DNA of 64,000 nt from a bacterium (GCA_016290135.1 JAEESW010000005.1:1-64000); one strand, 5' to 3'. Shown: positions 52,134 through 64,000, numbered from the stretch's first letter. Made by a program: numbers and translations. Notes: a model not told the origin generated them from the sequence alone.

Positions 52134-54161
52134 TCAGCCGTTATTCTTCAGTCTGGAGAGCATCTCCTTAAGCATTTCCGCAGTATCAGCGGGCGGCTTG
52201 CCGTATTTTCCGCTGCTGAGATCAGCCTCTCTGACAAAGACCGAAGGTTCAGTGTTTCTGCTCTTGCCTCTGAATGAGACCGTTTCCGGGATCGTGATGA
52301 CGAGCAGTTTTTTTGCCCTGGTGAAAGCAACGTATGCAAGCCTCCGCTCTTCCTCTATATTCGACTCTTCTATCGCAAGGTGGTTGGGAAATCCCCCCTG
52401 ATAAAATCCCGGAATGAAAACTCTGTCGAATTCGAGCCCTTTCGCGCTGTGGGCTGTGATTATAGTGACCTTTCCCTCCCTGCTTTCCTCCTCTCCGCTG
52501 CCCAAAAGCGAGACATTGTTCACAAAACGGGCAAAAAACGAGCGCGCGGTCCTGTGTTCCGGAAGTGTCGGATCTGTCGAAACAGCATCAAAAAAAGCCG
52601 AGATATTGTCGAGTTTTATCCTTGCGACATCTTCGCTTTCGGCACTTTTCCTTATCTCATTCTCGATCCCTATCCGCTTCACCAGAAAGGCTGTGAACTG
52701 CATCGGGTCAGCCGATTCGAATTTTTCCCTGAGCTCATGGAGCAGAACTGAAAAACCGCCGAGAGCTGAAGCCTGTTCCGTGCTGAAAAGAGTCCTGTAG
52801 ATCATGAAATCGTCAACGAGCTGCAATGGGGTAAGTTTCATGGAATCAGAGACGGAAAAAAACTTTTCCATCGTCCCGCTCCCTATCCCTCTGGACGGAT
52901 AGTTGATTATCCTGCGGAGATCGATATCGTCGTGCGGATTGAGGAGGATCCTGATGTAGGCAAGAATATCCTTGATCTCCTTGTTTTCAAAGAAGCGGCT
53001 GCCGCCGACAACGACGAACGGTATGCCAAGCTGCGAAAAAGCCACTTCAAAAAAGCGGGTCTGAAAATTGGCCCGCACTATGACCGCGACATCGTTGTAT
53101 CTTATCCCTTCGGACGACTTCCATTTCATTATTTCCTGAGCAGTGAAATCGGCTTCATCCTTTTCATTCGGCCTTTTTACGACTTTTATCCCTTCCCCGG
53201 CCTCTCCTTTTCTTGACGAAAAGCACCTTTTCGGGCTGCGTTTGCTGTTGTGGGCGATGAGTTTTCCCGCAGTGTCGACGATCTCGCTGATCGATCTGTA
53301 GTTCTCTTCAAGTTTCACGATCGTGACATTTTCGAAATCGCGTTCGAAATTGAGGATATTTTCGACATTGGCACCGCGCCAGCTGTAGATGCTCTGGTCA
53401 TCGTCACCGACAACGCAGATGTTTTTGTGGACCGAAGAGAGAAGTTTCACGAACTCGAACTGTGAAGGGTTTGTGTCCTGATACTCATCAACCATTATAT
53501 ATTTGTATTTTGAAGCATATTTAAGCCGGACAGATTCGTCATTTTTCAGGAGTCCTACCGGGAGCGCTATCAGATCGTCGAAATCAAGCGCGGCACGCAC
53601 CTTCATCGCCCTGCAGTATGAATCGAAAAGCCTGTTGGCAACGGCGTTTGTGAGGTTGGAAACAAGAAACGAGCTCTTTTCCCTGAGCGTAGGATCGTTC
53701 TTTATTTTCGATATCGCAGAAACTATCGCCTGGGCGGAAAAACGGTCGGGAGAGATCCTTTCGTCAGCCATGACACGTTTCATAAGTTCGCACTGCTCGT
53801 AAGGAGAATATATCGTAAAATCACCAGGATAGTCTATTTTATCGTACTCTGAACGCAGGATCGAAAGACCGAGCGAATGGAAAGTGCAGATGGTAAGTCC
53901 GGAACTCTTTTCGTCCGAATCGAGCAAAGTCTCCAGCCTCTGGCGCATCTCACGAGCCGCCTTGTTCGTGAAAGTCACCGCGAGAATGTTCTCAGACCTG
54001 ACCCCTTTTCCTTCGACAAGCCAAGCTATCCTGTGCGTTATAACGCGTGTTTTTCCTGAACCTGCTCCGGCAAAGACAAGAACGGCCCCTTCGGTCGTTT
54101 TTACCGCTGTTTCCTGCGGTCTGCTCAGATTTTTATCCACTTTATTCAAACTTAGCTCCAA
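52134..54161 (-). CDS. UvrD/PcrA/Rep-type superfamily 1 helicase (second paralogue)
   Basis: 'VFAGAGSGKTRVITHRIAWL', 'VDEYQDTNPSQFEF', 'GDDDQSIYSWRGANVENI', 'TAHSAKGLEFDRVFI'. Confidence 0.93.
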   Translation of the reverse strand: MELSLNKVDKNLSRPQETAVKTTEGAVLVFAGAGSGKTRVITHRIAWLVEGKGVRSENILAVTFTNKAAREMRQRLETLLDSDEKSSGLTICTFHSLGLSILRSEYDKIDYPGDFTIYSPYEQCELMKRVMADERISPDRFSAQAIVSAISKIKNDPTLREKSSFLVSNLTNAVANRLFDSYCRAMKVRAALDFDDLIALPVGLLKNDESVRLKYASKYKYIMVDEYQDTNPSQFEFVKLLSSVHKNICVVGDDDQSIYSWRGANVENILNFERDFENVTIVKLEENYRSISEIVDTAGKLIAHNSKRSPKRCFSSRKGEAGEGIKVVKRPNEKDEADFTAQEIMKWKSSEGIRYNDVAVIVRANFQTRFFEVAFSQLGIPFVVVGGSRFFENKEIKDILAYIRILLNPHDDIDLRRIINYPSRGIGSGTMEKFFSVSDSMKLTPLQLVDDFMIYRTLFSTEQASALGGFSVLLHELREKFESADPMQFTAFLVKRIGIENEIRKSAESEDVARIKLDNISAFFDAVSTDPTLPEHRTARSFFARFVNNVSLLGSGEEESREGKVTIITAHSAKGLEFDRVFIPGFYQGGFPNHLAIEESNIEEERRLAYVAFTRAKKLLVITIPETVSFRGKSRNTEPSVFVREADLSSGKYGKPPADTAEMLKEMLSRLKNNG

Positions 54162-55141: not shown

Positions 55142-55218
55142 TGGTCGGGATGACTGGGTTCGAACCAGCGACTTCTGCGTCCCGAACGCAGCACTCTACC
55201 AGGCTGAGCTACATCCCG
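55142..55218 (-). tRNA. tRNA-Pro (anticodon CGG), CCA encoded
   Basis: CGGGATG...CATCCCG acceptor stem; anticodon arm CTGCG-TTCGGGA-CGCAG; GCTGG-TTCGAAC-CCAGT T-arm; followed by ACCA. Confidence 0.95.
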
Positions 55219-55293: not shown

Positions 55294-55779
55294 TTAAAAG
55301 TTCCCTTTCGCCCATTCTGAAAGAGCCTCATTCGTCCAGTCTCCGTTGAGCACTTTGCCTTCTTTCAAAACAGTGGTTTCGGAAACCGAGGGTCTCAGCG
55401 ACTTCACGCTGCCTTCAAGCTTCATCGTGCCGCCGCTCGTTGCGAAAACGACAATGGTCTTGCCTGAAAAATCGTGCTTTTCCAAAAATGCGTTGACGAT
55501 AGAAGGAGCAGCCCAGCCCCAGATCGGAAAGCCGAGAAAGATCTTGTCGTAACCGGTCAGATCAAGTGCCTTGTCGACGATCTCAGGGCGTTTGTTTTTT
55601 CTTGTAGCGACCTCGCGGAAACTGCGTGAAAGCGGGTTCATCCACAGAAGATCGGCCTTCGTGTACTTTTTTACGGGCTCGATCTCGAAAATGTCCGCCT
55701 GGATCGCTTCGGCCAGCTGAAGCGCCTTCAGCTTAGTGTGCCCGCCTGCCGAAAAATAGATAACTAAATTTTTGCTCAT
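55294..55779 (-). CDS. Flavodoxin
   Basis: 'NLVIYFSAGGHTKLKALQLAEAI', 'IFLGFPIWGWAAPSIVNAFLEKHDFSGKTIVVFATSGG'. Confidence 0.88.
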   Translation of the reverse strand: MSKNLVIYFSAGGHTKLKALQLAEAIQADIFEIEPVKKYTKADLLWMNPLSRSFREVATRKNKRPEIVDKALDLTGYDKIFLGFPIWGWAAPSIVNAFLEKHDFSGKTIVVFATSGGTMKLEGSVKSLRPSVSETTVLKEGKVLNGDWTNEALSEWAKGNF

Positions 55780-55803
55780 CTCTCCTCCGTTATCGCTTGT
55801 GTT

Positions 55804-56631
55804 TTATTCCAACTGTTTCCTGTAGACCGAATCTAATGTTTGACCATCTTTGTCTTTCCAGACTAACCAACCGTTGCTACTGCTTCCGAGGCAGAAATCG
55901 GCAGCACTGCTCGGGCTGGAGAAGGTTTTATCAGATTCCAGTTCCAATTTATCACCATTCACGAAAGTGTATTCTTTAACCAATTTTTCGCGTTTTTCCT
56001 TCCATGTTAACGACGGAACCGATGACTTTGCGATGATGCTTCCTTTCAACACGGTAAAGCCGCCAGCATCATAAAAGCCTTTAGCCTCGCAGCCTCGTCC
56101 TTTTATGTAGAAGAGGTGTTTTTCTTTAGTTTTTACGACATCGAAAATATTGCATCCGATGAAAGATGTCAGGAATTTCACATCTTCAAAAAATCCGTCC
56201 ATATCATCTTTTCTGTACTCAGGAAGATTCGGTGCTTTGGGAGTTTGCTTGTTTTCGTTCAGCACAAAAGTATTGGATGCTTTTGCTTCTGCAATAGCTT
56301 TATGTTCCAAGTATTGCACATCTGCTTTTGTCATTGCGGCATCTTTTGCAATGAAAATCAGAGCTTTTTGCCAAAACTCCTTCTTGCTGTCGTGGTCTTT
56401 TACACGTTCACGAAAGTTTTCTGTCTCGCCGATATACGCCTTCGGTTTTGTGGATTCGTCTTCTCCCAGCAAAATATAAAATGCCGGAGTCCACAGCTCA
56501 GACCGCTCATTCAAAATCGCCAGATTGGAACGCGGGATTATGTACATCTGGCAAATCTTGTTGCTGATGAAAACATACTGAGTTCCTTTCGGATCTCCGT
56601 CAATCAGATACGTTGTTACTGTTTTGCCCAT
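55804..56631 (-). CDS. GIY-YIG nuclease-like protein (DUF4357-type C-terminus)
   Basis: 'AFYILLGEDESTKPKAYIGETENFRERVKDHD'; C-terminal '...SPSSAADFCLGSSSNGWLVWKDKDGQTLDSVYRK'. Confidence 0.8.
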   Translation of the reverse strand: MGKTVTTYLIDGDPKGTQYVFISNKICQMYIIPRSNLAILNERSELWTPAFYILLGEDESTKPKAYIGETENFRERVKDHDSKKEFWQKALIFIAKDAAMTKADVQYLEHKAIAEAKASNTFVLNENKQTPKAPNLPEYRKDDMDGFFEDVKFLTSFIGCNIFDVVKTKEKHLFYIKGRGCEAKGFYDAGGFTVLKGSIIAKSSVPSLTWKEKREKLVKEYTFVNGDKLELESDKTFSSPSSAADFCLGSSSNGWLVWKDKDGQTLDSVYRKQLE

Positions 56632-56633
56632 GA

Positions 56634-58565
56634 TTATTTTACTTCTTTTATGTTTGTTTCTATTCCATCAAGAATATTGAGAATTTTATCTATAAGCACA
56701 GAAAAACCCTCCATATCATTATATGTGTATTTATCCATCTCAATCTTACTACTTAAAGTATCTTTGACATTCTGTCTAAGGTCTTTCGGCAATTTCTTGA
56801 AAAAACCACCAGAGTTATTAATCTTTTCGATGGCAATTTTCTTTTTATGCTCTAAAGAAAAATAATCTTCTATGGTAAAGTCAATGTTTGTATGTTCTGC
56901 TGTTTTAGGCAACATAATATAATACCAATTACCTTTCTTATATGTGTGGTAATCACACCTGTTTTCAGTACAACCCAATTTACTCATGGCTTCGGCTCCA
57001 GAGCTATCTCTATCAAAGACAACAACAACTTTTCTGTGTTCGTTGATGTGAGGAGAAATTTTATCTATGAATTGTTTTGCATTTTCACCAGCCCCTCCCA
57101 TGAATAAAAAATCCCAAGATATTTTTGAATAATTATCATGATTGGTGCTCAATAAATATATTGCTTTTTTTATATAGTTAATATCCCCAATGCCTTCAAC
57201 TAAAATTAAAGGGGCGTTTGAGTTTAGAAAAAGACTTCCATTAAAGTAATCGACCAAACCTGATGATAATTCTGTTATTTGTTGAAGTTTTTCCATGTTG
57301 TCGAGAACACCTTTTTTCAAAGATCTGATATTTTCTTCTTTAATATCGTTCAGGAAAACAGGAGAATGTGTTGTTACAATGCTATATCTCTTATCTGTAT
57401 CAATTAGTTCTTTCAAGTCTCTTTGCTTTCCAATGTGTATATGCGCATCTGGTTCATCAAATAGACACAAACTGTCTTCTGTAGATAAAATGTGAATTAC
57501 GACATTTGCGTTTATTAATTTTTTTTCACCTTCACTTAATCCCTCAAGAGATCCCCTGTTATCGAATTCAATGTTAATCTTTTTGATTATTTGACTGCCA
57601 CCTTCAGTTCTGCATTTATATAAACAGTAAAATAGAGTACTTGCTTTATCAATAAAGCTGATATCATTAATTGTTTCTCTAAAGGATTCAATATCGTAGG
57701 CTGATTTTTCTTTTAACTTATCAATAAAACCTTCAATCTCAGTTCCTTCCCATTTCCGAATATTTGAAGTGTTATAATCAAATGATATTTTGCAAGATGA
57801 TGTTCCGACAAGTTCTTTTATAAATTTTATAACATCTATATCCTCGGAATATAACAGTGTAAGCAATGATATTTCCCATTCATAACGGCTGAGATAAAAC
57901 ATAAAAGGAGGTTCAAATCCTTGTGTCGCAACCATTTTGCTACAATACTTGTCATAAAGTGGCTTGTAACATTCTTTCCATAATCTTGTGTCTTCGCCAC
58001 TATATGAAGCTAAAATATTTTTAGGAAGGATGTCCGTAGTTATTTTTCTGCCATCTTTTAAGATTCCATCTGAAATTTCATATAATTGTCCTTTAAAAAT
58101 ATATCGGATTGTGTATTGAAATTTACAAGAGTATTTTTTTAATCCATCTTTTAGTGTCGCAATTTGATATAAACTATAAAAAATCAAACTTATAGCTTCT
58201 AAAACATTACTTTTTCCTGAACCATTTAACCCTATAAAGCAGCAGTAATTATTTGTAGGTTCCAAATCAACAGAAAAATTAACGAGGTTTTTATATCCTC
58301 TTATTTCTAAATAATATAGTTGGAATTTGTTTGATTTAATTTCGTATTTATAACATAAGGAGGTGTATTGATCTATATAACAATTTATGTAATCTGGATC
58401 TGTTAGTAAATTGTTATTGTCAAGCCAATGGTCAATGGTATCACATCTGCCGGATGTTCTTCTTTCAAATCCAAAAGCGTTTAGGAGTTCTCTTGGTGTT
58501 ATTTTTTTGCTTTGTTTAGTTTCTTGTATTTCTTTGGCCAAATTATTTAAATCTTCTCGGTTCAT
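56634..58565 (-). CDS. OLD-like ABC-type ATPase with C-terminal TOPRIM
   Basis: 'CFIGLNGSGKSNVLEA' Walker A; 'GLSEGEKKLI' signature; 'LCLFDEPDAHIH' Walker B; 'VTTHSPVFLND'; TOPRIM 'LILVEGIGDINY' and 'VVVVFDRDSSGAEAM'. Confidence 0.85.
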   Translation of the reverse strand: MNREDLNNLAKEIQETKQSKKITPRELLNAFGFERRTSGRCDTIDHWLDNNNLLTDPDYINCYIDQYTSLCYKYEIKSNKFQLYYLEIRGYKNLVNFSVDLEPTNNYCCFIGLNGSGKSNVLEAISLIFYSLYQIATLKDGLKKYSCKFQYTIRYIFKGQLYEISDGILKDGRKITTDILPKNILASYSGEDTRLWKECYKPLYDKYCSKMVATQGFEPPFMFYLSRYEWEISLLTLLYSEDIDVIKFIKELVGTSSCKISFDYNTSNIRKWEGTEIEGFIDKLKEKSAYDIESFRETINDISFIDKASTLFYCLYKCRTEGGSQIIKKINIEFDNRGSLEGLSEGEKKLINANVVIHILSTEDSLCLFDEPDAHIHIGKQRDLKELIDTDKRYSIVTTHSPVFLNDIKEENIRSLKKGVLDNMEKLQQITELSSGLVDYFNGSLFLNSNAPLILVEGIGDINYIKKAIYLLSTNHDNYSKISWDFLFMGGAGENAKQFIDKISPHINEHRKVVVVFDRDSSGAEAMSKLGCTENRCDYHTYKKGNWYYIMLPKTAEHTNIDFTIEDYFSLEHKKKIAIEKINNSGGFFKKLPKDLRQNVKDTLSSKIEMDKYTYNDMEGFSVLIDKILNILDGIETNIKEVK

Positions 58566-58567
58566 CC

Positions 58568-59950
58568 TTACTCAAATATCTCCTTTTCAAATTTTTCCAA
58601 TGCTTCTTTTCTAAGATTTGCTGCTTTTTGCCGCAATTCTTTGATTTGTGACTTTTGTTTATTGATATGCTCAACTATTGCGTTTTGAATTGAGATCGGT
58701 GGAAGTAAAACTTGTATAGTATTGAAAGTTCTCTCATTTATTCTCGGCATTCTTGCTCCTTGGAACGCATTGCTAATTTGTTGTTGAACCGCCGCTGATG
58801 ACAAATAATACTTAAAATAATAATCATTGATGTCGTGTTTTATTGAGAATACAAAGAACTCCGACGAGCACACAATATTGTCGTTATGATTCTCGTTAAA
58901 CCAGTATTTATTCAAATAAGGTCTTAATTTTCCATATAAAAAATAATGATAAGGAACTCTTACAGTTTGGCTTTTTATTTCTTTACCTTTAACTTTTTTG
59001 TTTTCAACCAATAACCCAGTGCCTTTTTCAACACTCTCCATCCCAATGTATTGGAAATCTTTTTCTGGTAATTTGGATGTTTCTATTCTCAACGAGCAAC
59101 CTTTTTCATCTTGCATGAAGTTTTCTATGCATTTGTTCATAAATACAGTATTATATTTTCCCATAACACCTTTTGTTTGGGAGTAATATGAAACATCCCA
59201 CCTTTCTGAGTCCTTAAACTTTATAAATTTCAAATACTTACAATCCTTTTTGAGTTCGTCTTTACCAATATTCGCAGTATTTAGATTTTGCCTAATTCCC
59301 AATTCTGTCAGCAAATAATCTTCTATATCTTGTTCTATCTGTTCGGCTTGTTGTTCCATTTTTGCTGCTTTTTGAATTTTGGCATTATACGCATTAACCA
59401 ACGATTGTTGCTCAGAAACAGTTGGTAATGGGATTTCCAAATGTAACAATGTTTTTAGAGGGAAATGACGTCCATCTGCTCCGATGGCGTTTTTATCCCA
59501 TATATCAGTTAGTCGTTTTAATTTTAATAGGTTGAGAAAATATTCAGGGATAATTTGTTTATAATCAATATCAAGGTATTGCATATTACTTGATCCATAC
59601 GAATCTGCATATTGAGGGTAAACTATTCCCCATTGACCTTTAACTGTTCTCACCTTACAATAAAACAAGGTATTAGCTTTAGATTTTTGGTATCGTTTCA
59701 TGGTAAGTTCTTTTCCATGAACAATTTTATTGATATAAACTCCCTCGCCTTGTGCATGGACACCAAGTATGGGATATTGTTTATCATCTTCGATATTTGT
59801 CCAAGTAATATCTGCTTTTGATAATATCTTTCCCAATACTATTGCTGGATACCTGAAAGATTTTGATTCATCACATAAAGATTTTAAATCCCATCTTTCG
59901 ATTTTTTTGAATCTTACGAATTTCAAATATTTATATTCTGCTTTCAACAT
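58568..59950 (-). CDS. hsdS: Type I-like restriction-modification specificity subunit (two TRDs)
   Basis: Two half-repeats 'KYLKFVRFKKIERWDL' and 'KYLKFIKFKDSERWDV'; 'IPLPTVSEQQSLVNAYNAKI' and 'LLPPISIQNAIVEHINKQK'. Confidence 0.92.
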   Translation of the reverse strand: MLKAEYKYLKFVRFKKIERWDLKSLCDESKSFRYPAIVLGKILSKADITWTNIEDDKQYPILGVHAQGEGVYINKIVHGKELTMKRYQKSKANTLFYCKVRTVKGQWGIVYPQYADSYGSSNMQYLDIDYKQIIPEYFLNLLKLKRLTDIWDKNAIGADGRHFPLKTLLHLEIPLPTVSEQQSLVNAYNAKIQKAAKMEQQAEQIEQDIEDYLLTELGIRQNLNTANIGKDELKKDCKYLKFIKFKDSERWDVSYYSQTKGVMGKYNTVFMNKCIENFMQDEKGCSLRIETSKLPEKDFQYIGMESVEKGTGLLVENKKVKGKEIKSQTVRVPYHYFLYGKLRPYLNKYWFNENHNDNIVCSSEFFVFSIKHDINDYYFKYYLSSAAVQQQISNAFQGARMPRINERTFNTIQVLLPPISIQNAIVEHINKQKSQIKELRQKAANLRKEALEKFEKEIFE

Positions 59951-59956
59951 ATCTTC

Positions 59957-62215
59957 CTATTCTTTTACGCCGTAAAAAACTTCCGGCTCGGAAACCATTT
60001 TGTCTGCTATACGAATACGATAAATATTACCTTCGTCAGGGAGATAATATTGAGTTTCTTTGAAAAGCACATCCCACAATTTCATTTCCTTGCGATAAGG
60101 AGTGAATTCTTCGGCAAGCGGAATAAGCTCGTTTTCGATTGCAGCTCCAGTAGTGCTGATTCCCGCTTTTTTCACTTCTGCAATAGGAATTTCGTAATCG
60201 AACTTTTCTTTAATGATTTCCTTTATTTCAGCAGCTTTTTGTTCGATAATTTTTTTCTTTTTTGCTGAAAGTTCATTCTTTTGATCTTTTGGCAACCCGC
60301 GCTTTGAAAGCTGATTTTCAATTGTTGAAAGTTCTTCCGCATATTTTGTATCGACTGAATTCGTTGCCTCAGCTTTAATGGATTCGTATTCTGCCGCTTC
60401 TTTTTCTGTGAATTTTTTGAAGAAAAGCAAACTTGGTTTTACTGTCGCTCCGGATGCAATAAAAACATCTTGGGGAATGGAAACAATAAGTAAAATTTTT
60501 GCTCTGCTTTCAACAAATTCACGCACTTTTTGGAGATTTGAATTGTTTAATACTCCTTCGGGCAGGACGATTCCCATTCTGCCACCAGGCTTTAGCAGAT
60601 TAAGGCAACGTTCGATGAATAATACTTCAGTAAGCCCGTTATCTATTTTGTAAAGGCTCAAAAGCGGTTTGCCAACATTGTCATTCACCTGCTTTAGTGC
60701 TTGGATGTATGCTTCCCCGTACCGCTTTTTATAAGCGGCGATTTTGGTTTCGTCTGTAAATTTGTCGGCCTCAGTTATCATCAAGTCCTTTTCTACACGT
60801 GAACCAAATGGGGGATTCGTTAAAATTACATCAAAACGATTTTCGAAAATACCGTTTACATTAAGCAATCCGTCATGGTGATGTACTCCGCCGTGACCGT
60901 CGCCGTGCATGATCATATTCATTTTTGCAGTTCGAGCCATTCTCGGATTGGCATCTGTGCCGTAAATGCAATCAAATGACAAGGTGCGAAGCCTGCTTTT
61001 ATCATTGTTTATATTTAATTCCTCGTTCAGGTGAGCAAAAGCTTCTGAAACTTTTGTTTCAATCGCTTGCTTTTTCTTCTCAGACAGTTTGTCGAAATCT
61101 ACTCCGTAACAATCGCTCTTTATAACCTCCTTTTGTCTCTCGATATCTTTTTCGATGTGTTCTCGAACATATTCAAATGCTTTAATCAAAAAGCCGCCGC
61201 TTCCGCAGCACGGATCGCAAATGTATTCGCCTTCCTGCGGGTCAAGAACAGAAACCATAAAGTCAACAATAGTTCTTGGTGTAAAGAATTGACCAAGTTC
61301 TCCGCGGAATGTTTTCCCTAAAAATTTTTCAAAAGCGATACCTTTTACATCGTCAGAAGTCGTGGAAAGGTTATATATTTCCAATTCCTTAACTATCTGT
61401 TCAAAGCTGTTCTCACGGATTTCGATTTTCGCATTGTCATCGAAAAGATGGTCGTTTGCAAACTGTTCCTTGGTCTTTGTGAACAAAAACTGATAAAATT
61501 CTTCTCCCCCTAGAGGTTTATATCTTTCATAACTTTCTTTGTCCTTTTTGAAAGTGTCCAATGAAAATATCTGATTCCCGGTATTGTCGCGCTCAAAACG
61601 AATCTTAATAAACAGAATTTTGCTTATCTCGTCAAAACCTGCTTCCGGAGAGAGTTTATCGTTATTGCGAATGATGTTGTGGCATTTGAAAAGCAGCCTT
61701 GAAAATTCATCGCGCGTAAAAGCCTTGGTCTGCGTCAACAATTTATCGATTTCTTTTTGGCTGTTGGCTTTTGTTACATCTGGGATATCAACGACTTCTT
61801 CAAGTTTGTCAGGAATTTCACCTTTTACCAGTTTGAAAATTCGAGTCTCCTTCAAATTGGTTGTCACAAAAAAGTCTGCATGAGACCATGATGCATAATT
61901 CATTCCCTGATAATAGTCTTCTTTGTGGATAGTGACAGATTCAGCCTTGCATTCAACAATGATAAGAGGATATTTGTTCTTCTGCTTATCTTCGGCATTC
62001 TTCCAAACTACAATATCAGCACGTGCCATACCTTGCCCACGCTGAGAATTGTTTACCTTCAATTCTTGATCCATTTGCTCAAGGGTAAATCCATAGTTGT
62101 TTACCAGTCTGCAAATATATTTTTGCCTTACTTCTTCTTCCGGTTTTTTGACAAGCCATTTGTTTTTTAACGGTGCAAATATTTCATTGCCTCTGATTTG
62201 TAGTTCGAGTGCCAT
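59957..62215 (-). CDS. Nuclease-methyltransferase fusion: N-terminal HSDR_N-like PD-(D/E)XK domain + HsdM-type N6-adenine methylase
   Basis: N-terminal 'ARADIVVWKN...YPLIIVECKAES'; 'GQFFTPRTIVDFMVSVLDPQEGEYICDPCCGSGGFLI'; 'ILTNPPFGSR'. Confidence 0.9.
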   Translation of the reverse strand: MALELQIRGNEIFAPLKNKWLVKKPEEEVRQKYICRLVNNYGFTLEQMDQELKVNNSQRGQGMARADIVVWKNAEDKQKNKYPLIIVECKAESVTIHKEDYYQGMNYASWSHADFFVTTNLKETRIFKLVKGEIPDKLEEVVDIPDVTKANSQKEIDKLLTQTKAFTRDEFSRLLFKCHNIIRNNDKLSPEAGFDEISKILFIKIRFERDNTGNQIFSLDTFKKDKESYERYKPLGGEEFYQFLFTKTKEQFANDHLFDDNAKIEIRENSFEQIVKELEIYNLSTTSDDVKGIAFEKFLGKTFRGELGQFFTPRTIVDFMVSVLDPQEGEYICDPCCGSGGFLIKAFEYVREHIEKDIERQKEVIKSDCYGVDFDKLSEKKKQAIETKVSEAFAHLNEELNINNDKSRLRTLSFDCIYGTDANPRMARTAKMNMIMHGDGHGGVHHHDGLLNVNGIFENRFDVILTNPPFGSRVEKDLMITEADKFTDETKIAAYKKRYGEAYIQALKQVNDNVGKPLLSLYKIDNGLTEVLFIERCLNLLKPGGRMGIVLPEGVLNNSNLQKVREFVESRAKILLIVSIPQDVFIASGATVKPSLLFFKKFTEKEAAEYESIKAEATNSVDTKYAEELSTIENQLSKRGLPKDQKNELSAKKKKIIEQKAAEIKEIIKEKFDYEIPIAEVKKAGISTTGAAIENELIPLAEEFTPYRKEMKLWDVLFKETQYYLPDEGNIYRIRIADKMVSEPEVFYGVKE

Positions 62216-62446
62216 ATTCTCTCCTTGCTGACATGTAAAAAAACAACCTCGCAATTATCTTGATTTTTGCACTAAAATCAATTCAAAACTTCTATAAAAT
62301 TCAACATTTTCTGCATTCGGAAAAAATCAACAAATTCAAATGATTTAAATCGTATGTTCCAAAACGGAAGGAACCGGCGAACAGCTTTTTTTGCGGAGTG
62401 GGGAAAAACATCTTCGTGGCCTCACGAAAATGATGTGATTGAATCC

Positions 62447-63769
62447 TTATAATACTTTCCAAAACCCCGATTTGTTGGAGCCTTCCCGTTCTATAACCTG
62501 TTTTTTTATGAGAGAAGCTACTATTCTCTGAACAGTCTTTTCCGACTTTCCAATTCTTACAGCCATTTCCGCTTTTGAAATACCTTCATTATTCTGAATT
62601 AAATTGAAGATGTTCTGTTCAGCGTCAGTTAGTTCCTTATTTATCTGGACATTTATCTGGACATTTGTCCTGATAAATTCGAAAAAGAAACCGTGAGCCT
62701 CTTTTCTGTAATTCCAAGTTACATTCTGCTGTTTGCAAAAATCATTCACTCTTTGGAAGCCGGTGCCGGATTTTTCTACATCTCTGCTCCTGAACAGTAT
62801 GTCCAGAATAAGCCTGTTTCTCTTGTAAGACGGAAGGTTTCGTGAAATAAAATCAAGAGGCGTGAGATCATCCGGAAATGATCCAGGATTGTATATCTCT
62901 ATCTTTCCGGGATGAATGCCGATTTCTATTTCTGGAATAGTTGCATAATCAGCATGCGCAAAAGCGTTTACTATGATTTCTCGAAGCGCTCTCTCAGGTA
63001 TTTCCGGTATTTCTTTTCTTTTTCTGGATCCTATCTCATTTCTCCAGTTGATTCGGTTCAACACATAGTCAAGAGCATCACTGAGAAGATTATAGATGTT
63101 TCCCGCAAGCAACTTTAAATCAGTAAAAGTCACTTTGTTGTCAGTAGCATACGAAGCAAGCTTTAAACCGATTCTTGCATTTTTACCAAAAAGCGCATAT
63201 CCGCCATTGTTTATATATCCGCCATGCATTACTTCTATAGCAGAAAGGAGCTTTTCTTTATCATATTTCTTCATCAACAAACGACCGCACTCTTTTGCAG
63301 ATTGATAAAAGTCCTTTAATGCCTCGTCATCCAAATCATCAGCTTTATAATTCGTCAATTCCTCTTCCCATTTAGAAGAATAATCACTGTTCTTTATCAA
63401 TCGTTTCAATTCATCCTGTGACATTTTCCTGTTTTCAGAGCCAGTCCTGATAAGATATTTTCCGTTAACCGCATAAGGTCTGTTGTGACCGGAAAATGAC
63501 ACCTTGATTATTGTCCGCTGTTCTATTGTAAGAACCTCTATAGTCGGTATGATTCTAGGTTCGATGGAATCATTGATGATTCTGGAAATATCCTTTTTAG
63601 TGGAATCGCTTACTTGTTGTCCCTTGACAAACCCCGAATCATCGACACCAAAATAAACTGTACCGCGGCAATGCTTATTCAAGATAGCAGCAATAGATTC
63701 CATCGCTTCATTTTTTTCTCCTGTTGTAAGTTTAAATTCAACCGTTTCACTCTCAAAACCAATAATCAT
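62447..63769 (-). CDS. Schlafen/AlbA_2-type ATP-binding putative transcriptional regulator with C-terminal winged helix
   Basis: 'ESETVEFKLTTGEKNEAMESIAAILNKHCRGTVYFGVDDSG'; 'EIPERALREIIVNAFAHADYA'; C-terminal 'NEGISKAEMAVRIGKSEKTVQRIVASL'. Confidence 0.85.
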   Translation of the reverse strand: MIIGFESETVEFKLTTGEKNEAMESIAAILNKHCRGTVYFGVDDSGFVKGQQVSDSTKKDISRIINDSIEPRIIPTIEVLTIEQRTIIKVSFSGHNRPYAVNGKYLIRTGSENRKMSQDELKRLIKNSDYSSKWEEELTNYKADDLDDEALKDFYQSAKECGRLLMKKYDKEKLLSAIEVMHGGYINNGGYALFGKNARIGLKLASYATDNKVTFTDLKLLAGNIYNLLSDALDYVLNRINWRNEIGSRKRKEIPEIPERALREIIVNAFAHADYATIPEIEIGIHPGKIEIYNPGSFPDDLTPLDFISRNLPSYKRNRLILDILFRSRDVEKSGTGFQRVNDFCKQQNVTWNYRKEAHGFFFEFIRTNVQINVQINKELTDAEQNIFNLIQNNEGISKAEMAVRIGKSEKTVQRIVASLIKKQVIEREGSNKSGFWKVL

Positions 63770-63904
63770 CTGATCCCCTCCCAGATATTAGCATCGCATT
63801 TTGTCCAGATAGATGCATCAAAAGAAAAAGCTAACCAGTGGTTTGCCGATTCCATTGCAGTGTGATGTGCAAAATACCGATTTGAGTTTTTTTACTTCTT
63901 CCAT
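63766..63904 (-). pseudogene. Small ORF with apparent +1 frameshift at a poly-A run, coupled (ATGA) to the downstream regulator gene
   Basis: RBS GGAGG, ATGGAAGAAGTAAAAAAACTC; the other frame gives SNRYFAHHTAMESANHWLAFSFDASIWTKCDANIWEGIR* with TGA overlapping the next ATG. Confidence 0.4.
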
Positions 63905-64000
63905 TGTGTAACCTCCAAATTATAGCGTGTGATAATAACATAAAATCGTTAAAAGCAAAATCTATTTTTCAAAAAATTTTCTTTTATTTCTAATATATGT

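Follow-up and report, generated by a model that had tools for sequence, protein, structure and literature searches.

Analysis of a 64,000-nucleotide stretch of DNA from a gut bacterium (hereafter the window) revealed a cassette that, with a probability of roughly 0.55, represents a mobile, motorless type I-like methylation core fitted with a plug-in ATPase-nuclease effector for defence. In the proposed mechanism, the methylase M and the specificity subunit S would together read a bipartite DNA site and place m6A on host DNA as a mark. The type I motor subunit is missing, and the slot right after S holds a nuclease that an ABC ATPase would control, here an OLD-type ATPase-TOPRIM protein (OLD). 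A satisfied M-S would hold the effector inactive; an encounter of M-S with unmarked phage DNA, or inhibition of M-S by a phage anti-restriction protein, would release it. Nucleic acid would then be cut by the TOPRIM domain, perhaps with an additional BcgI-like cut by the HSDR_N domain of M, and a GIY-YIG-DUF4357 protein would act as an accessory nuclease. We infer the gating of the effector by M-S from the analogy with retrons, which place the same effector types under a different sensor, and the trigger and target named here are likewise putative.

If this reading is correct, a plug-in ATPase-nuclease has taken the place of the motor in a restriction-modification chassis. OLD and Septu effectors, until now associated with Gabija, PARIS and retrons, would then be controlled by DNA methylation and site recognition. 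Domain exchange in OLD would be the effector-level counterpart of TRD shuffling, pointing to an arms race with phage inhibitors, and the cassette would allow the signal sensed by OLD-TOPRIM effectors to be approached directly. More tentatively, and at odds that we place a little below even, the window protein may define a new OLD class, with the methylase-specificity complex as sensor and with an effector that diversifies much as specificity subunits do: its ATPase and TOPRIM domains would recombine between loci, next to M and accessory genes that hardly differ, and so re-arm one marking and sensing chassis with different nucleases.

Operon and genomic island

ORF calling on the window returned four minus-strand genes at 55804-62215 with intergenic gaps of 6, 2 and 2 bp, exactly the near-gapless arrangement described in the initial annotation, and the AlbA_2 gene proved to be an additional member of the unit beyond these four (Table 1). 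M was assigned an ATG behind AGGAGAG; a TTG 39 bp upstream is a possible alternative, and the ATG with its good ribosome-binding site is preferred as the likely start.

Table 1. Features of the cassette and its island, numbered from the first nucleotide of the window
Feature	Coordinates	Strand	Basis or remark
M, HSDR_N-type PD-(D/E)XK domain plus N6-adenine methylase, 752 aa	59957..62215	-	ORF call, Pfam, PADLOC, alignment
HSDR_N_2 nuclease-like domain of M, residues 25-145; E27, D67, E88, K90, Q103	61781..62143	-	Pfam (E 1e-25), alignment
N6_Mtase domain of M; motif I DPCCGSGGF, motif IV NPPF	60356..61354	-	Pfam, alignment
S, two-TRD specificity subunit, 460 aa	58568..59950	-	ORF call, Methylase_S match, PADLOC
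OLD-like ABC ATPase-TOPRIM effector, 643 aa	56634..58565	-	ORF call, AAA_21/AAA_15, alignment, structure model
N-terminal extension of OLD, residues 1-80	58326..58565	-	N-terminus of the DS11 anti-phage model matched by residues 25-79
ABC ATPase domain of OLD; Walker A K118, signature S344-E-G-E, Walker B D370-E371, H400	57321..58322	-	
TOPRIM domain of OLD; E457, D461, D518, D520, E566, K601	56646..57218	-	
GIY-YIG nuclease-like protein with C-terminal DUF4357, 275 aa	55804..56631	-	ORF call, Pfam, PADLOC candidate PDC-S14
DUF4357 domain of the GIY-YIG protein; overlapping weak RAMA match	55834..55992	-	Pfam
AlbA_2 (Schlafen-type)-HATPase-wHTH protein, 440 aa	62447..63769	-	Upstream gene of the same island
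Island	55780..64000	none	Between flavodoxin (55294-55779) and aromatic amino acid lyase gene (contig 64120-65694)

The island has a GC content of 35.6%, compared with 46.5% over the window's first 50 kb, and composition inside the island was uneven (M 38.6%, S 32.0%, OLD 30.3%, GIY 42.1%). In two congeneric genomes (G023 and G024) the flavodoxin and lyase genes are adjacent, with about 20-25 bp from the lyase stop to the flavodoxin start, and the GIY gene is absent between them. The AlbA, M, S, OLD and GIY genes were therefore gained as cargo, and the cassette was acquired as one island. That the GIY gene is a resident of the hotspot rather than cargo was rejected because the flanks adjoin without it in both genomes. 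At the same site, the congeneric genome G018 carries a different HSDR_N-methylase (692 aa) with an S subunit and the same GIY protein. The interval from the flavodoxin, beside tRNA-Pro CGG (55142-55218), to the lyase gene (contig 55294-64119) is a defence hotspot, empty in G023 and G024 and holding other cargo in G018.

The methylase-nuclease and specificity subunit

M was matched over its full length by the PADLOC model MTase_I (PDLC03018, filed as Type I methylase) with 1268 bits. The protein assignments of the initial annotation agreed with the domain searches: the PD-(D/E)XK-like segment fused to an HsdM-type methylase corresponds to HSDR_N_2 plus N6_Mtase, the second gene was matched by Methylase_S as a two-TRD specificity subunit, and the third, read as an OLD-like ATPase/TOPRIM protein, was matched by AAA_21/AAA_15 and retains the conserved residues of both domains. 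Alignment of M relatives revealed that D67, C89 and K90 of the nuclease motif are invariant and E88 nearly so, and HSDR_N_2 also occurred in the other GIY-linked M types. Since these residues are conserved, a BcgI-like core is possible, in which M-S might restrict unaided via HSDR_N. Only the methylase part of M matched the solved RM.BsaXI structure by sequence, and no similarity to it was detected for the nuclease domain. M-S is predicted to carry m6A activity.

HsdR absence and the ATPase behind S

As had been noted from the sequence, no HsdR-like protein was present among the ORFs of the window, and a genome-wide search with a single HsdR query, for which this genome offered no positive control, gave no match. 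To place this in context, we collected 80 loci with M relatives, mostly from gut Bacteroidota, with others from Campylobacterota, Psychrobacter and further groups; four of them (L010, L011, L012 and L037, from G016, G022, G027 and G018, respectively) belong to the genus of the window. The family is patchy, occurring in 5 of 28 genomes of the phylum and in 5 of 299 genomes sampled from the genus of L018. Flanks were complete to different extents, with 5 kb on both sides in 47 loci.

With 12 helicase-like proteins from control HsdM_N loci as queries, 15 of the 20 canonical HsdM control loci contained an HsdR-like protein, against 1 of 79 loci of the M family (Fisher p 1e-12), a comparison that favours the controls because they supplied the queries. 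The sole M-family match (L049) lies on the opposite strand. Of the 63 M-family loci that could be evaluated, 51 encode an ABC-type ATPase behind S, compared with 1 of 20 controls (p 9e-10, with loci not fully independent). In 44 of the 51 it is the very next gene after S, usually overlapping or a few bp away, and the one control locus with an ATPase behind S (L149) shows that Septu-like ATPases also occur beside canonical type I loci. The order M-S-ATPase is fixed, with overlaps or gaps of 1-6 bp, across Bacteroidota, Campylobacterota, Psychrobacter and the lineage of the window. The remaining 12 of the 63 loci have no ATPase behind S, and M-S can therefore exist without one. Taken at the level of gene order and co-occurrence, a physical and evolutionary coupling of M-S to an ATPase-nuclease is well supported.

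An exchangeable effector slot

The occupant of the slot varied between loci. An ATPase-TOPRIM protein was found in about 30 loci and a PtuA-like ATPase in about 19, nearly all of the latter followed by a PtuB-like HNH protein. Rarer contents comprised a TOPRIM protein with a 130-aa protein (p130) and GmrSD (L032, L034, L046 and L048), a TOPRIM protein with the 130-aa protein and no GmrSD seen (L056), HATPase/DUF4325 (L019, L022 and L025) and TIR (L066). Over the labelled entries of the M tree, the effector type switches at least 17 times, and M proteins that are 96% (L011/L012) or 95% (L039/L078) identical are followed by effectors of different kinds. OLD-TOPRIM and Septu PtuA-PtuB are effector types that retrons use as well.

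These data bear on the composite system proposed in the initial annotation, a restriction-modification core coupled to an OLD effector and a GIY-YIG nuclease. The coupling of M-S to an ATPase is borne out by the 51 of 63 loci above, which is also what the suggested survey of gene neighbourhoods across relatives yielded on the positive side. A fixed four-gene system was not supported: the OLD slot is filled elsewhere by Septu or other effectors, and just 7 of the 80 M relatives have both OLD and GIY-YIG. Nor is the GIY-YIG protein specific to the composite; it is a general type I-like accessory, found also in HsdR loci without OLD.

Several loci showed additional slot arrangements. Two effectors share an operon in L049 (12623-16999, Septu plus OLD-DUF5655) and in L074 (12618-16596, two OLD-like proteins, one with DUF4357). 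L135 (G026:C40, 2716-10799) encodes an HSDR_N-methylase (664 aa) and S, followed by a 614-aa protein that Pfam did not match, two further proteins of unknown type and GIY, possibly another effector set in the same slot. A small conserved protein of 194-208 aa without a Pfam match lies between S and the effector in L016, L022, L065, L070 and L075. The 130-aa protein of L032 (14407-14799) and its relatives, located between the TOPRIM protein and GmrSD and without a Pfam or PADLOC match, is 83-96% conserved, and the adjoining OLD varies. An M-S-OLD set is also present on an IMG/VR contig listed as viral (L183), and carriage by a phage or satellite is possible.

Domain architecture and mosaicism of OLD

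Alignment of 33 OLD sequences revealed conservation of the ATPase residues G112, N114, K118, S344-E345-G346, D370-E371 and H400; in the TOPRIM domain E457, D461, D518, E566 and K601 were invariant and D520 nearly so. These TOPRIM residues match the catalytic residues of Bp OLD (PMC6755086), with E457 corresponding to E400, D461 to E404, D518 to D455, D520 to D457, E566 to E508 and K601 to K562. The nearest solved folds to the AlphaFold model (pLDDT 85) were retron PtuA, AriA and GajA; whole-chain TM-scores were low (0.23-0.31), and the fold match thus holds at domain level. PADLOC returned partial, ambiguous ATPase matches only (PtuA, mad3, AriA and GajA). Residues 1-80 of OLD are common to L013, L051 and L139, and residues 25-79 scored 27.8 bits against the NCBIfam DS11 CBS-domain anti-phage model; this extension is perhaps a common docking domain.

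Close pairs of loci revealed divergence confined to particular genes. L032 and L034 are 98% identical in M, 96% in p130 and 98% in GmrSD, with S at 53% and OLD at 33%; the window and L010 share 83% of M and 96% of GIY, with S and OLD both at 29%. Within OLD, identity was distributed unevenly between the two domains. The window protein and that of the congeneric locus L139 (G018:C30) are 86% identical in the ATPase and 22% in the TOPRIM domain, and corresponding values were 71% and 20% for window/L051, 86% and 35% for L046/L048, and 85% and 40% for L082/L084. The reverse was seen in L017/L018 (ATPase 54%, TOPRIM 90%). DNA identity profiles showed sharp steps at the points of discordance.

The halves of OLD differed by at least 28 points in 13 of 53 pairs (those in which one or both halves reached 50% identity), compared with 0 of 435 pairs for M, 0 of 13 for PtuA and 0 of 45 for GIY, in an identity comparison rather than a formal recombination test, with pairs that are not independent and an M that is much more conserved than OLD. 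GajA was dropped from these controls for having too few relatives. The TRDs of S, which are known to shuffle, were discordant in 66 of 82 pairs, and the HSDR_N and methylase domains of M in 5 of 435. Rate differences alone would hardly produce opposite discordances in different pairs, and on these comparisons OLD proteins are shown to be mosaics with ATPase/TOPRIM domain exchange. No silent TOPRIM cassettes were found in the genome of the window.

Identities of S and of the ATPase were uncorrelated over all pairs (rho 0.01), so there is no sign of an effector tuned to a given S. For the same reason, and because OLD is 98.6% identical between L084 and L085 with S at 57%, we rejected the idea that S and OLD are swapped as one unit.

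Comparison with known defence systems

Type I HsdRMS systems share with the cassette an N6-adenine methylase M and a two-TRD S in one operon, and their loci also hold AlbA and GIY-YIG accessory genes; the cassette differs from them in lacking HsdR, in the fusion of HSDR_N to M and in the ATPase-nuclease after S. Like BcgI/BsaXI (Type IIB), it combines a nuclease-methylase fusion with a separate two-TRD S and no motor, but its nuclease is of the HSDR_N_2 type, not detectably BsaXI-like by sequence, and an ATPase effector is attached.

The OLD family comprises class 1 P2 Old (single gene), class 2 Gabija GajA, class 3 retron and class 4 PARIS, together with an archaeal class. The window protein has the ABC ATPase and TOPRIM domains of this family with the same catalytic residues, whereas it stands in an M-S context rather than alone, without GajB, a retron reverse transcriptase or a split AriA/AriB, and bears the extension of residues 1-80. 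No UvrD-like GajB was adjacent, the nearest UvrD-like ORF (52134-54161, judged by reading) lying outside the island, and Pfam and PADLOC detected no reverse transcriptase among the five island genes. An AriA/AriB pair was likewise absent: AriA and AriAB gave partial matches of 58 and 46 bits, and OLD is one fused protein. No island protein matched a PtuB or HNH model; PtuA and PtuB (HNH) are present in L011, L049 and other relatives. Septu and the Septu/TOPRIM retrons draw on the same two effector types that occupy the one slot here, and the nearest folds to OLD include retron PtuA, but the putative sensor of the cassette is a methylase-specificity complex rather than reverse transcriptase-msDNA, and the window has no HNH gene.

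MADS contains distant relatives of the cassette proteins in its HSDR_N-type methylase MAD2, S subunit MAD5 and ATPase MAD3. Membership was rejected on NCBIfam scores of 292 for MAD2 (cut-off 720), 45 for MAD5 (400) and 23 for MAD3 (420), and no further MADS gene was recognised. BREX and related systems resemble the cassette in placing ATPase-nucleases, paired with alternative nucleases, on a DNA-modification core, and BREX loci carry OLD-ABC backup effectors (PMC12839542); the cassette differs in its core, an HsdR-less HSDR_N-methylase with S, and in an effector that occupies a fixed slot and exchanges domains. OLD-ABC ATPases on modification systems are a kind already described, in sources that cite Krishnan 2020. 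In a literature search that included few subscription papers, no description was found of an HsdR-less chassis, an exchangeable slot or ATPase/TOPRIM exchange, and the HsdR-less HSDR_N-methylase/S chassis, its effector slot and the domain exchange appear to be new.

Alternative readings

The cassette might instead be a BcgI-like restriction core under guard, in which M-S cuts via HSDR_N and OLD forms a second, suicidal layer for when restriction fails or is inhibited, like PrrC or PARIS; this sharpens the possible backup role that the initial annotation suggested. The invariant D67, C89 and K90 with the nearly invariant E88, the HSDR_N_2 domains of other GIY-linked M types and the loci with M-S and no ATPase are consistent with this, and there is precedent in PARIS, which detects the restriction inhibitor Ocr, and in the backup effectors of BREX (PMC12839542). 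Sequence comparison, however, linked only the methylase part to the solved BsaXI structure, engineered HsdR-nuclease/HsdM fusions methylated DNA but did not restrict (PMC6158711), and the near-universal presence of the ATPase suggests more than an optional backup; we regard this account as rather unlikely.

Less probable still is a purely spatial association, with OLD, Septu and GIY-YIG as independent defence genes that piled up beside M-S without functional coupling. The site is an integration hotspot, effectors vary widely, S and the ATPase vary independently, and GIY-YIG-DUF4357 accompanies many restriction systems. Such piling up fits poorly with an M-S-ATPase order that is held by overlaps or 1-6 bp gaps from Bacteroidota to Campylobacterota, Psychrobacter and the window lineage, with the loss of HsdR specifically in the M family, and with the DUF4357-OLD fusions described below. 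An orphan epigenetic methylase whose restriction arm has decayed, with remnants as neighbours, would also fit the absence of HsdR from the cassette. Against it stand the full length and intact catalytic motifs of the four proteins, their conservation across large distances and the recent acquisition of the cassette as an island, and this reading is very improbable.

Accessory GIY-YIG-DUF4357 protein

The fourth gene matched GIY-YIG slightly below the Pfam cut-off (E 1.7e-4) and DUF4357 clearly (E 6e-19). Its product is the best-conserved component, with 73-96% identity between loci, and Y52, Y66, R76, H80 and E109 were invariant in the alignment; a fold search with its structure model (pLDDT 67) returned nothing usable. 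The protein follows several M-S types and effectors. Among annotated plasmids, it occurred in type I loci with HsdR in Parabacteroides, Bacteroides, Salinibacter, Prosthecochloris, Rhodococcus and two Acinetobacter, and without such a locus in Rhodothermus, Desulforapulum and Variovorax. Because it is often found in type I loci with HsdR, GIY-YIG-DUF4357 belongs to type I-like systems and not specifically to OLD.

DUF4357 is fused to the OLD protein itself in L043 and L074. DUF5655 takes its place on OLD in L049, L068 and L071, and in L028 a NucS-like-DUF5655 protein is encoded separately. The next gene is visible for four of the fused OLD genes, a small number, and in none of these four is it a GIY or NucS-like companion. 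DUF4357 overlaps a sub-threshold Pfam match to RAMA, whose fusions to GIY-YIG are suggested m6A readers (PMC11037411), and the DUF4357 domain probably reads modification state.

Two further observations concern this gene. In L139 (minus strand, approximately 15450-15300), a large internal deletion has left only the two ends of the GIY gene behind OLD. On the Desulforapulum plasmid pHRM2a (L173), GIY-YIG-DUF4357 and another DUF4357 gene lie in blocks that are repeated close to recombinase genes, with no restriction system nearby.
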